Assembly: GCA_013203595.1 (NCBI GenBank)
Contig: JABMNT010000194.1
Coordinates: 1 to 64,000 of the forward strand
From: Rhodospirillales bacterium
Lineage (GTDB): Bacteria; Pseudomonadota; Alphaproteobacteria; Rhodospirillales; Casp-alpha2
Direction of reading: 5' to 3'
Length of the DNA stretch: 64,000 nucleotides
The position numbers and the translations under genes were made by a program. The notes below the pieces were generated by a model. It was not told the origin of the DNA. It saw nothing but the letters and a program-made list of their open reading frames with translations, and did not search any database. Position 1 is the first letter of the stretch. Every line of letters starts with the position of its first letter. Shown here piece by piece: positions 6,734 to 10,888 of the stretch.

Positions 6734-7783
6734 ATGAAACAAATTAACGTGGGGATAATCGGCACCGGCTGGTGTGGCGGAATTCGTGCCCAGACCTGTG
6801 CCTCAAACCCGCTTGTCGACCAATTGCATATTGCCGAAACCAACCCGCAGCGGCTGGCCGAAATGAAGGCCCTGCATGCGCCAACAACAGCGACGGAAAA
6901 TTATCGCACTCTTCTGGAAAATCCCCAGATTGATACCATCATCATCTCGGCAACGCCGGAAACCGCCCATTATCCGATGGCCAAGGAAAGCCTGATGGCC
7001 GGCAAGCATGTGTTTCTGGAAAAGCCGCTGGCGCTGACCCTGACGGAAGCCGATGAATTGGTTGCCCTGGCCCGGGCCCGTAATCTCAAGTTCACCATCG
7101 GTTATTCGCAGCGCTTCAATACCAAGTATGCCTATATCAAGAAAAGCCTGGAGGACGGCGTTATCGGCGATCCGGTCAGTGTTCTGGTCAGCCGTCATAT
7201 CAGCCGCAGTCTGGGCAGCAAGATCGGCGGCCGGATCAAGTTGTCGCCGGCGGCCATGGAAGCCACCCATGATATCGATTTTGTCCTGTGGTGCCTGGAA
7301 CCGGCCAAGCCGGTGCGGGTTTATTCGCAATGGGTCAACAAGGTCATGCATCCAACCCACGGGGTCCAGGATTGCCAATGGATCATGGTGACCATGGATG
7401 ACGGTACGGTCTTCACCATCGGTGCCGGCTGGATACTGCCACCGGCCTATCCCAACTTTTCGCAAACGGCGATTGAATTTGTCGGCTCAAAGGGGGCTCT
7501 GTTTGTTGACGATTCGCATAAGGATGTGATGCTGACAACCATGGATAAGGGTATCGTTTTCCCGATGTCGACCATGCCCGGCGAACAGGTCAATCATGTA
7601 TTTGCCGGCCCCATGCATGCCGAGACCAATCACTTCGTTGACGCCGTCGCCTATGACAAGCCTGTCCTGGTGACACCGGAGCAGGCCCGCAATGCCATGG
7701 AACTCTATGTGGCGGCCGATTTATCGGCCGAACGAAACGAACCGGTTACCTTGCCGCTCAATCATGATCCACTGACGCCCTGA
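6734..7783 (+). CDS. Gfo/Idh/MocA-family oxidoreductase
   Basis: A 349-residue NAD(P)-dependent oxidoreductase. The Rossmann motif GIIGTGWCG is at residues 7-15 and the family EKP motif is at residues 96-98; the C-terminal alpha/beta domain follows. Substrates in the family are sugars, inositols and sugar acids; none can be assigned here. It is the first gene of a four-gene plus-strand operon with a VOC protein, a DctP-like binding protein and an Ldh2-type dehydrogenase. A strong hairpin overlaps its stop codon. Confidence 0.9.
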   Translation: MKQINVGIIGTGWCGGIRAQTCASNPLVDQLHIAETNPQRLAEMKALHAPTTATENYRTLLENPQIDTIIISATPETAHYPMAKESLMAGKHVFLEKPLALTLTEADELVALARARNLKFTIGYSQRFNTKYAYIKKSLEDGVIGDPVSVLVSRHISRSLGSKIGGRIKLSPAAMEATHDIDFVLWCLEPAKPVRVYSQWVNKVMHPTHGVQDCQWIMVTMDDGTVFTIGAGWILPPAYPNFSQTAIEFVGSKGALFVDDSHKDVMLTTMDKGIVFPMSTMPGEQVNHVFAGPMHAETNHFVDAVAYDKPVLVTPEQARNAMELYVAADLSAERNEPVTLPLNHDPLTP

Positions 7784-7845: not shown

Positions 7846-8739
7846 ATGCACACACCTGCATTTCCGGAAGTTGGCGGCGTTGTGCACCTGGAGCACGTCA
7901 ATTTTGTTGTCGCCGATCACGATCTGGCAACCACGTTTTTCATGGGTGGCCTGGGTTTTACCCGCGATCCCTACAAACGGGCCGATGACAGCAATATGGG
8001 GGTCAATGTCGGTAACCAGCAATTTCATTTACCCCGGCGCGGCGCGACGCCGTCGTTTCCCGGTGAAATCGGGCTGGTGGTGCCGGATTTGCCGGGCATT
8101 AAAAACCGCCTGGCCCGCCTGCAGGCCATGGGGCGGTTTGCGGGCACGCCGTTTGCGGTTTCCGATATGGGCAACACCTTTCACGTGATCAGTCCGTTTG
8201 GTATCCCCCTGCGCCTGTTCGCCGCCGGAACGACGCCAAGTTTAAGGCCGCTGGCGATCTCCTATGTGGATGTTTCGATTCCCGTCGGCTATGCCAAAGC
8301 CGTTGTCGCGTTTTATCGGGATATGATGAATTGTCCGGCGGTGCGGACCGTGGTTGATGGCGAGGTGACGGCCTTTGTTCCAGTCGGGCCCTATCAGAGC
8401 CTGCGCTATCACGAACGCGATCTGGACGACTATGATACCCATAACTTTCATATCGCCATTTATGTGACCCACTATAACGAGATCCGTGAAAAACTGTCAC
8501 AACGGGATGCCTTCATGGGCGACGGCCTCAATCAGACGTTTTTCTTCAAAGGGGTCTACGAGCCGTCTTCCGGCAATCAGGTCTGTCCGCTCCAGCATGA
8601 AATTCGCGGCATTTATCATCCCGATTTCATGCGTCCCCTGGTCAACCGCTGGCCCATGAACAGCGAGCCGTTCTCGGATCAGGCGGCGGTTATGGCGTCC
8701 CTTCGCGACGAGAAAGGGGTGCCGTTTGAAAATCGATAA
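7846..8739 (+). CDS. VOC-family protein (two glyoxalase/dioxygenase modules)
   Basis: A 297-residue protein with two vicinal-oxygen-chelate modules: the first opens with HLEHVNFVVADHDLATTFF (about residues 12-125), the second with ISYVDVSIPVGYAKAVVAFY (about 138-260). The family includes glyoxalases, extradiol dioxygenases and epimerases. Probable metal ligands are His and Glu residues, but I cannot assign the reaction. GAAGGAG precedes the ATG. It is the second gene of the operon with the Gfo/Idh oxidoreductase. Confidence 0.82.
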   Translation: MHTPAFPEVGGVVHLEHVNFVVADHDLATTFFMGGLGFTRDPYKRADDSNMGVNVGNQQFHLPRRGATPSFPGEIGLVVPDLPGIKNRLARLQAMGRFAGTPFAVSDMGNTFHVISPFGIPLRLFAAGTTPSLRPLAISYVDVSIPVGYAKAVVAFYRDMMNCPAVRTVVDGEVTAFVPVGPYQSLRYHERDLDDYDTHNFHIAIYVTHYNEIREKLSQRDAFMGDGLNQTFFFKGVYEPSSGNQVCPLQHEIRGIYHPDFMRPLVNRWPMNSEPFSDQAAVMASLRDEKGVPFENR

Positions 8740-8754
8740 CCGGGGCCTATAACC

Positions 8755-9696
8755 ATGACCGACAGCCAGCAGATCGTTCTCAAATTTGGCGGTTACCAGC
8801 CGCCGGCTTCGGTGCACACCCGAGCGGCGGACGTTTTCGGGCGCGAGCTGACGGCGCGCCTGGGCGACCAGATCGTCTTTCAGTTTGACGCCAATATTGT
8901 TGCCGACGGTCATAATGCCAAGGAGTTGTTGAGCCGGGTTGAAAGCGGTGCCTTGTCTATGTGTTATTTTTCGGCCAGCTATCTGGCCGACCGGGTGGCC
9001 GAGTTTGCCTTGCTTGATTTGCCCTTCATGTTCAAGAACCGGGCCCATGCCTATGCGGTTCTGGATGGTCCCCTGCAGGCTTATCTGGCCGATAAACTGA
9101 GCCAGAACACCGGTTATAAACTGATGGGTTTCTGGGACAACGGATTCCGGCATTTTTCCAATTCCGTCCGCCCCATCCGGGTCCCGAAGGACTGTCAGGG
9201 GCTGACCATTCGCACCCTGTTCAGCGATTTGCATGGTCAGGTATTCAAGGCTCTGGGTTTTGATCCGGTGCCACTGGATGTCAAGGATCTGATTGCGGGC
9301 ATCGAATCCGGGGCCGTTACGGCACAGGAGAACCCGTTGACAAATACCTATAATTTCGGCATTCACCACCACCACAAATACATGACCCTGTCGTCCCATT
9401 TTTTTGGCGCTGCGGCGCTGTTGTGCAATGCCCGGATTTATGATGCCTGGCCGCCGCATGTGCAGGCTGCGGTCGATGAAGCGGCAAAATTGGCGACCAG
9501 TGCCCAGCGCGGCTTTGCCGCCCAGGAAGACGCCGTTATGCTGGCCAAACTGGCCGAAACCGATGCCCAGGTTATTGAACTGAGCGTTGTTGAGCAGGCC
9601 CTGTTTGCCGCTGCCGCGGAACCGGTTATGGCGGCGCAGCGGCAACGGTTTGGCGACGATCTGTTCGCCCTGGTGGAAGCGGATATGAAGCCATGA
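8755..9696 (+). CDS. TRAP DctP-like binding protein lacking a signal peptide
   Basis: A 313-residue DctP-fold protein. The hallmark segments are there: LKFGGYQPPASVHTRAADVF at the N-terminus, DLPFMF, the GFWDNGFRHFSNS stretch and the conserved Arg region TIRTLFSDLHGQVFKALGFDP. No signal peptide precedes the mature fold, and an in-frame TAA lies six codons upstream of the ATG, so none can be added. No DctQ or DctM genes are adjacent. The protein should therefore stay in the cytoplasm, which is unusual for this family. Its stop overlaps the next gene's ATG (ATGA). Confidence 0.85.
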   Translation: MTDSQQIVLKFGGYQPPASVHTRAADVFGRELTARLGDQIVFQFDANIVADGHNAKELLSRVESGALSMCYFSASYLADRVAEFALLDLPFMFKNRAHAYAVLDGPLQAYLADKLSQNTGYKLMGFWDNGFRHFSNSVRPIRVPKDCQGLTIRTLFSDLHGQVFKALGFDPVPLDVKDLIAGIESGAVTAQENPLTNTYNFGIHHHHKYMTLSSHFFGAAALLCNARIYDAWPPHVQAAVDEAAKLATSAQRGFAAQEDAVMLAKLAETDAQVIELSVVEQALFAAAAEPVMAAQRQRFGDDLFALVEADMKP

Positions 9697-10748
9697 GTGA
9701 GCCCCAGCGGGTCAGCCAGGCGGCCCTGCAGAGCTTTATATACAACTGCCTTGTTGCCGAAGACATCCCGCCTGACGATGCCGCCGTAGTCAGCCGCCTG
9801 ATGGCGGAAGCGGATGTGAACGGGTCGGACGGGCATGGGGTATTCAGGCTCGCGCAATATATCGAACGGATCCAGGCCGGCGGCATGAACAGGCGCCCGC
9901 AGCTGACCGTGGTCAGTGAACGCGCCGCCATGGCGCTGGTTGACGGCGACAACGGGCTCGGCCACCTGGCGGTCAACAGGGCCGTCGAAATTGCCATGGA
10001 AAAAGCGGCGACAACCGGTGTCGCCTGGGCCGGGACACGGATGAGCAACCATGCCGGACCGGCTGGCCTTTATGCCCGCATGCCCCTTAGAAAGGACATG
10101 ATCGGAATTTACATGGCGGTCGGTAATGCCAACCATCTGCCGCCCTGGGGTGGCACCGACATGCTGCTCAGTACCAATCCGATCGCCGTTGCCGTGCCGA
10201 CAAAATCGGAAACACCGATCGTCCTCGACATGGCAACCACGGTGGCGGCCTATGGCAAGGTGAAAACCAAAGCGCAGCGGGGCGAACCGATGCCGGAAGG
10301 CTGGATGATCGACCGCATGGGCCAGCCGCTGACCGATCCGCAACGGGCCGATGAGGGGTTTCTACTGCCCATCGGCGGACCGAAAGGCTATGGGCTGGCG
10401 CTGATTTTCGGGCTGCTTGCGGGCACCCTGAACGGTGCCGCCTTTGGCAAGGCGGTGATCGATTTCAATGCCGATTCAAAGTCCACTACCAATACCGGGC
10501 AAATGATTATCGCGGTCTCCGTCGAGGCCTTTTGTGATGTTGATGCGTTCAAGGAAGCGGTTGACCAGGTGATTGTTGATATTCGCTCATCGCCGACCCT
10601 GCCCGGGTTCGACAGCATCCGCCTGCCGGGCGAACGGGCCCATTCGGTGCGTCTGGACAATGAAGCCAGAGGAATCCCGGTTCATGGGGCATTGCTTGAA
10701 AAGCTGCATGTGCTGGCCGACAGTCTCGGGGTTGAGCGCCTGCTTTAG
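9693..10748 (+). CDS. Ldh2/malate-lactate-type dehydrogenase
   Basis: A 351-residue member of the Ldh_2 (malate/L-lactate/ureidoglycolate/2,3-diketogulonate dehydrogenase) family, NAD(P)-dependent oxidoreductases without a Rossmann fold. DVNGSDGHGVFRLAQYIERI carries the family's catalytic His; SNHAGPAGLYA and the PKGYGLALIFGLLAGTLNGA glycine-rich part follow. It probably oxidises a 2-hydroxyacid produced by the upstream genes (inference). ATGA overlap with the DctP-like gene shows tight coupling. Its stop codon TAG is made by the TA duplication plus the first base of the MITE-like element. Confidence 0.9.
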   Translation: MSEPQRVSQAALQSFIYNCLVAEDIPPDDAAVVSRLMAEADVNGSDGHGVFRLAQYIERIQAGGMNRRPQLTVVSERAAMALVDGDNGLGHLAVNRAVEIAMEKAATTGVAWAGTRMSNHAGPAGLYARMPLRKDMIGIYMAVGNANHLPPWGGTDMLLSTNPIAVAVPTKSETPIVLDMATTVAAYGKVKTKAQRGEPMPEGWMIDRMGQPLTDPQRADEGFLLPIGGPKGYGLALIFGLLAGTLNGAAFGKAVIDFNADSKSTTNTGQMIIAVSVEAFCDVDAFKEAVDQVIVDIRSSPTLPGFDSIRLPGERAHSVRLDNEARGIPVHGALLEKLHVLADSLGVERLL

Positions 10749-10888
10749 TGCCGTTCATGTTCATATGGAAGCAGCTGAGATCGTCAAAGCGGCCCGCTTG
10801 TGATGTCCCCCATCGCTGCGCGAACTGCTCCGCAGCCTGAGGAACCGGTGCGGACGTCTCAGCGATGCCATATGAACATGAACTGCAC
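10748..10888 (+). mobile_element. MITE-like element, copy 2 (complete)
   Basis: A 141-bp element flanked by TA on both sides (10746-10747 and 10889-10890). The first 21 bases match the reverse complement of the last 21 with one mismatch (position 5), and the dyad continues imperfectly inward (GCTGAGATCGTC against GACGTCTCAGC). No gene is inside. It lies between two convergent genes, and both take their TAG stop from its ends. It is inverted relative to the copy at 1-119 and almost identical to it. IS630/Tc1-mariner affiliation is inferred from the TA duplication only. Confidence 0.85.

Follow-up and report, generated by a model that had tools for sequence, protein, structure and literature searches.

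The DctP-fold protein encoded at positions 8755-9696 of the stretch of DNA analysed here (64,000 nucleotides at its full length, hereafter the window) belongs to a clade of homologues that lack a signal peptide. This clade very probably reflects a reuse of the DctP fold inside the cell, where its members would take part in acid catabolism. Our full account is that one old DctP branch lost its signal peptide a single time, became cytosolic, rebuilt its cleft and came to perform an enzyme step in acid catabolism; taken as a whole, we consider this account evenly balanced between right and wrong. The proposal of the earlier note, that the fold might have been reused for a carrier, a sensor or an enzyme of the cytosol, is supported at the level of the family, although we infer the location from sequence features.

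A complete DctP fold with no signal peptide

The gene is an open reading frame of the forward strand with an ATG start (8755-9696, stop codon included) and specifies a protein of 313 amino acids. The Pfam DctP profile (PF03480) matches this protein with an E-value of 8.9e-58 and 196.3 bits (cut-off 23.4) across profile positions 1-281 of 286, and the AlphaFold model is of high quality (pLDDT 96.2, pTM 0.92). Given this near-whole profile coverage, the predicted fold is complete, as the earlier note had stated. The NCBIfam TRAP_S1 model (NF037995) also matches, at 158 bits (cut-off 50), while the score against the dctP subfamily model (TIGR00787), 160.2 bits, falls below its cut-off of 175.05.

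In the AlphaFold model the first strand of the fold starts at residue 7, too early for a signal peptide to precede it. An in-frame TAA (8737-8739, forward strand, visible in the sequence and the ORF list), which is also the stop codon of the preceding VOC gene, shuts the frame six codons before the DctP ATG. Both of these points had been made previously and are borne out, as is the reported absence of TRAP membrane subunits nearby: a phmmer search of all ORFs of at least 80 aa found neither DctQ nor DctM in the 64-kb window. We therefore place the protein in the DctP fold family and do not class it as a functional TRAP subunit, since a signal peptide and a linkage to permease genes were both looked for and neither was found.

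Signal peptides across the family

Among 200 related genomes, the genome of origin included, 24 contained a match at an E-value of 1e-60 or better, and a scan of 84,980 species genomes yielded at least 571 relatives among at least 595 pattern matches, of which the best 80 were kept. The patterns used for the species scan target the central part of the protein, such that the N-terminus played no part in selection. The signal-less branch was delimited by HMM score, where a clean gap separates members (313 bits or more) from other proteins (223 bits or less). A signal was called where a start codon, a basic residue and an 11-residue hydrophobic stretch ending no more than 25 residues from the fold were present, and this rule was run on all distinct DctP frames gathered, leaving out two truncated members (L028 and L108).

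A signal was called in none of the 108 distinct branch members and, by the same rule, in all 31 ordinary DctP proteins. With looser thresholds one (L089) or two (L058 and L089) of the 108 were called, both having long open frames upstream, and the controls remained at 31 of 31 each time. In 48 of the 108 members a stop codon occurs within 15 residues upstream, so that a signal is impossible in these. The earlier note had named homologues from the same operon with signal peptides as the observation that would speak against it, and no such homologue was called. The branch includes proteins from isolates, namely Nitratireductor sp. XY-223, Hoeflea poritis, Phaeobacter marinintestinus and Roseibium album.

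A lost start codon, a frameshift, a decayed secreted gene or an assembly error has therefore been ruled out, on the grounds of the upstream TAA, the sister species and a clade that includes isolates. Such errors do occur in this family: the annotated start of an ordinary DctP on a Sulfitobacter pontiacus plasmid (L185, position 2965) is too short, with a leader-like stretch in frame upstream that represents its real signal, and database entries for "signal-less" DctP proteins therefore need checking. For the window gene, an artefact of this kind has a negligible probability, because the same start is used in a homologue of 71% identity and none of the 108 members has a signal, those of Phaeobacter, Roseibium, Hoeflea and Nitratireductor included. 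The absence of the signal thus appears as a trait of the clade, and is neither an error nor a lone oddity.

The composition of the proteins is consistent with this. Signal-less proteins carry a mean of 3.33 cysteines, compared with 0.75 in mature secreted proteins; at least one cysteine is found in 58 of 60 signal-less proteins, while 20 of 32 secreted proteins have none. A higher cysteine content is as expected for a reducing compartment.

The genome of origin encodes further DctP-like proteins. One of them (L002; G000:C114 26902-27807, minus strand), 37% identical to the window protein, likewise starts directly with the fold, in contrast to paralogues with leader peptides, for example L003 and L005. 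L002 adjoins rhodanese-like and GlcG-like genes, and its relatives elsewhere sit near amidohydrolase-like and GMC-oxidoreductase-like genes (the rhodanese-like and GlcG-like labels come from reading the sequence).

Phylogeny and distribution

In a tree of 92 rows (60 signal-less and 32 secreted), built by a quick method without bootstrap and containing several long secreted rows, all 60 signal-less rows fall on one side of a single branch (SH-aLRT 100; stem of 0.96 changes per column). This branch is nested among the secreted DctP rows, its nearest secreted row being a DctP from a Defluviimonas plasmid (L184, support 96). The clustering of signal-less homologues that had been suggested as a check hence returns one clade. 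It is divided into two sub-branches, GGYQ (51 rows, the window protein among them) and GGYG (9 rows), the latter being the branch of L002, and the gene context of the GGYG branch differs from that of the GGYQ branch.

The spread of the family is sporadic. Of 289 genomes sampled evenly across the class, three, the genome of origin among them, had a member at an E-value of 1e-75. The titles of the best 80 of the at least 571 relatives point to Alpha- and Betaproteobacteria, Granulosicoccaceae, Desulfobulbaceae, SAR324, Rokubacteria, Nitrospinota and one Chloroflexi MAG. Several MAG titles are doubtful (L066, L073, L080, L097, L103, L116 and L114): aquatic bins bear the name Bordetella parapertussis, and a contig titled Thermoflexus encodes a DctP similar to the one in a beta-proteobacterial bin. 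In plasmid records the window DctP has no match at an E-value of 1e-50, and at 1e-15 the homologues are about 35% identical or less (among the matches listed, 40 of 702).

The operon around the gene

The window gene lies in a short operon of the forward strand. It is preceded by a Gfo/Idh/MocA oxidoreductase of 349 aa (6734-7783; PF01408, 7.8e-23, with the IolG model TIGR04380 below cut-off) and by a VOC-family protein of 297 aa that resembles glyoxalases and extradiol dioxygenases (7846-8739; PF00903, 9.2e-07). It is followed by an Ldh2-family dehydrogenase of 351 aa, of the malate/L-lactate/sulfolactate type (9693-10748; PF02615, 6.3e-111), which matches the NCBIfam sulfolactate and ureidoglycolate dehydrogenase models, both below cut-off. 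The ATGA coupling described earlier holds for one side of the gene: the stop codon of DctP overlaps the start codon of Ldh2 at 9693-9696 (forward strand), and VOC and DctP are 15 bp apart. The Gfo/Idh/MocA gene, absent from the earlier note, is more informative as a neighbour.

A sister species of the same genus (L010, L149) encodes a DctP 71% identical to that of the window, with the same start and the same gene order, and the overlap of four nucleotides recurs in L149. In the latter, the Gfo-VOC-DctP-Ldh2 series is succeeded by TctB, TctA, a gene labelled c23, a decarboxylase, TctC and a HIBADH-type gene, and this order ties the short operon of the window to the wider pattern of the family. 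The c23 product (L067 5774-6520; L149 15087-15863) is a protein of about 248 aa that neighbours DctP in eight of 107 loci and has no Pfam or NCBIfam matches.

Gene neighbours across the clade

Neighbours were surveyed by phmmer, using the window proteins, Pfam-typed representatives and DctQ and DctM of the genome of origin as queries against the ORFs of 113 sources. One control without a member (L170) was dropped and five of the other 112 were duplicate contigs, leaving 107 distinct loci. The counts within 6.5 kb of DctP are lower bounds, as many contigs end inside this span. Gfo/Idh/MocA is the most frequent enzyme partner (43 of 107 loci), followed by the HIBADH type (30) and Ldh2 (16). TctC is found in 44 loci, although it is abundant in Betaproteobacteria anyway, TctA in 22 and TctB in 16; DctM, cupin and carboxymuconolactone decarboxylase genes occur in nine each, and VOC in two.

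The proposed association of the protein with metabolic enzymes is supported by the gene neighbourhoods of the clade, across which Gfo/Idh/MocA, HIBADH-type, Ldh2 and TctABC genes recur; VOC, at two of 107 loci, is not part of the conserved context. At least one of Gfo, Ldh2 and HIBADH is near DctP in 56 loci and none is in 51, the latter partly owing to contig ends. In 20 of 107 loci Gfo is the immediate neighbour of DctP in the same orientation, eight times upstream and 12 times downstream, and the pairing therefore survives a rearranged order. Ldh2 is directly downstream and co-oriented in seven. As a rough background for Gfo, the 4.58 Mb genome of origin has 16 PF01408 matches, or about 0.05 per 14 kb, against the 43 of 107 loci observed. 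Related loci are not independent, and on the tree the Gfo neighbour (22 of 59 rows) requires at least ten changes.

The genes are arranged as decarboxylase, TctC, TctB, TctA, Gfo, DctP, TctB, TctA, TctC in both Phaeobacter (L068) and Roseibium (L113). Around 10 kb in L068, L112 and L113, the Gfo-DctP pair is enclosed by two TctABC sets, an unusual doubling of an uptake system. In five Nitrospinota-like loci (L084, L091, L096, L098 and L110) a gene for a TrkA/ion-channel protein comes next after that of the signal-less DctP, and the surroundings are conserved.

The proximity of transporter genes raises the question as to whether the protein might work outside the inner membrane without a signal of its own, by non-classical export or hitchhiking, in the service of TctAB or DctQM. 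The TctA and DctM genes found within 6.5 kb of 22 and nine loci, respectively, are compatible with such a role, as is the DctM gene directly upstream of DctP in L063/L156. L156 is an exception, with DctM directly adjacent in one of the 107 distinct loci. Of the 22 TctA loci, 20 also have TctC, the proper receptor of TctAB, within 6.5 kb, and a divergent DctM operon in L154 holds a further ORF of 370 aa with a signal-like start, which is a candidate for that operon's own binding protein. Furthermore, the partner proteins begin at their folds, no Tat-like leader was seen among them, and the cysteine content argues for a reducing compartment. A location outside the inner membrane is, in our estimation, very unlikely. 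By comparison, both TRAP permease genes were adjacent or one gene away in all six secreted plasmid homologues examined (the nearest among the matches listed).

A second possibility is that of a cytosolic sensor, whose opening and closing would signal the acid to a regulator or an enzyme. Binding-protein folds do serve as sensor domains, and some proteins matching the corresponding Pfam models are cytosolic with other functions, according to one report (PMC9602780). The neighbourhoods offer little to such a sensor: no type of regulator recurs, LysR being within 6.5 kb in five of 107 loci and a GntR-like cluster (labelled from reading the sequence) in five of 80, and no fused output domain was seen. 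A sensor role therefore seems distinctly unlikely.

The binding cleft

The residues that matter for ligand binding in this DctP subgroup have been described by 4P47 numbering (PMC11668362). Arg152, Arg173 and Asn213 form the clamp around the carboxylate, the residue at position 196 is an aromatic that shuts the site, and position 76 has an acid that binds a hydroxyl; pantoate, erythronate and sugar acids are given as ligands of the subgroup. By profile alignment, these positions correspond to R132, R153, N193, V176 and, approximately, N54 of the window protein. All three residues of the carboxylate clamp are present in 78 of 78 members in alignment A3 of the signal-less family, from which the other counts out of 78 are also drawn. 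In the window they are encoded on the forward strand at 9148-9150 (Arg132), 9211-9213 (Arg153, the equivalent of the TRAP salt-bridge arginine, which is also found in 32 of 32 secreted controls) and 9331-9333 (Asn193). The ligand is hence probably a carboxylate, and we favor a small hydroxy- or keto-acid.

Other parts of the cleft have changed. The position of the aromatic lid is V176 in the window protein and is aromatic in none of 60 signal-less proteins, versus 30 of 32 secreted ones. The secreted sister L184 also lacks this aromatic and shares D175-V176 with the clade, and the change of the lid may therefore predate the loss of the signal. The loop at 4P47 position 76 bears a two-residue insertion (residues 52-53, a gap in 32 of 32 secreted proteins), which makes its alignment uncertain; no acid is among the commonest letters at position 54, and D57 is present in 74 of 78 members. 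Near-invariant residues new to the signal-less clade are G12-G13-Y14, G52, Y71, H133, C147, D175, H207 and W232. Among these, Y14, Y71 and D/E175 occur in 78 of 78 members and H207 in 73, and all four are rare or absent at the matching positions of the 32 secreted proteins. The alignment and secondary structure suggest that Y14, Y71, D175 and H207 line the cleft, which appears to have been rebuilt while the residues that hold the carboxylate were kept.

A proposed role in acid catabolism

Gfo/Idh/MocA, HIBADH and Ldh2 families act on hydroxy acids or sugar-like polyols. In the proposed scheme, the signal peptide would have been lost once, on a single old branch of DctP, whose members would have worked in the cytosol ever since. 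TctABC, or a TRAP system, would import an organic acid, which the NAD(P)-dependent Gfo/Idh/MocA, HIBADH and Ldh2 dehydrogenases would convert. The DctP-fold protein would hold a carboxylate intermediate by its clamp and might carry out an isomerase, dehydratase, decarboxylase or lyase-like step between the dehydrogenases. Our best reading is that of a cytosolic carboxylate-binding protein that is more likely to be an enzyme than a carrier or a sensor, with the chance that proteins of the window type are enzymes lying at, or slightly under, even.

The retained clamp fits a plain binding protein too. A carrier or buffer in the cytosol would bind an imported acid that is reactive or in short supply and pass it to Gfo/Idh/MocA or Ldh2, performing no chemistry. 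The whole Venus-flytrap fold has been retained along with the clamp, TctABC uptake and oxidoreductase genes lie close by, and the stop-start overlap of DctP and Ldh2, in the window and in the sister species, suggests matched amounts of the two proteins, all of which would suit a carrier. To our knowledge, however, cytosolic carriers of small acids are rare, which counts against this reading. The invariance of Y14, Y71, D128 and N129 across phyla is, moreover, stricter than would be expected from the largely variable cleft of secreted proteins, as described in PMC11668362. We regard a carrier as unlikely. For the enzyme reading, the added polar residues are invariant across phyla in a cleft that is otherwise largely variable, and one fixed chemistry may therefore be favored, and hence an enzyme step.

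If this is correct, the clade would be an enzyme family derived from a TRAP binding protein, having kept the clamp, gained Y14, Y71, D175 and H207 and acquired dehydrogenase partners, and acting in an undescribed organic-acid pathway that occurs in several phyla and is annotated as transport. We offer this fuller statement tentatively, as somewhat less than evenly probable. One could then follow how a transporter receptor became a catalyst from one visible state to the other, since the clade has secreted outgroups, the signal would have been lost only once and the residue changes can be counted. Were the protein a carrier instead, a cytosolic carrier of small acids would have been made from a transporter part.

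Relation to known binding proteins

The structural neighbours listed for the AlphaFold model are TRAP binding proteins, 4P47 with a Z-score of 39.5 and an rmsd of 1.8 over 308 residues, and the closest solved relatives among the matches listed are 4P9K/4PAK, 4P47, 4OVS, 4NQ8, 4PDH, 4XEQ, 4PDD and 7BBR. The window clade shares with DctP-type TRAP binding proteins the two-domain fold and the Arg, Arg, Asn clamp. It differs from these in the absence of a signal peptide and an aromatic lid, in its extra cysteines and clade-specific residues, and, at the window locus, in having enzyme neighbours and no DctQM. The isethionate-binding TRAP protein IseP (8T9T) is similar in fold (Z 37.7, rmsd 1.7 over 305 residues) and in two conserved arginines; in contrast, it is periplasmic and has a native signal peptide that was omitted for expression, as stated in PMC11668362. 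The Defluviimonas protein L184 has D175-V176 in common with the clade, yet it possesses a signal peptide and adjacent DctQ and DctM genes, and it lacks Y14, Y71, C147, H207 and W232.

MqnA, MqnD, HisG and 4,5-dihydroxyphthalate decarboxylase are cytosolic proteins or enzymes with a binding-protein fold, and they resemble the window clade, at the level of the fold, in using such a fold inside the cell. None of these is known to belong to PF03480. The cytosolic reuse of binding-protein folds is known in general: Pfam models of binding proteins also match single-domain proteins of the cytosol that have other functions (PMC9602780). For a signal-less DctP family, no report was found in the open-licence literature searched. 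All 78 members scanned match the NCBI TRAP binding-protein model NF037995 at an E-value of 0.001 or better, and they are therefore likely to be annotated as parts of transporters. Such annotation would conceal a probably cytosolic family together with its surrounding pathway.

Other features of the window

Directly after the Ldh2 gene, positions 10750-10888 of the window form an imperfectly palindromic, MITE-like repeat of about 139 bp, which is also found at positions 1-117. This repeat has 45 matches in the genome of origin, fragments counted, and contig C169 starts inside one copy.
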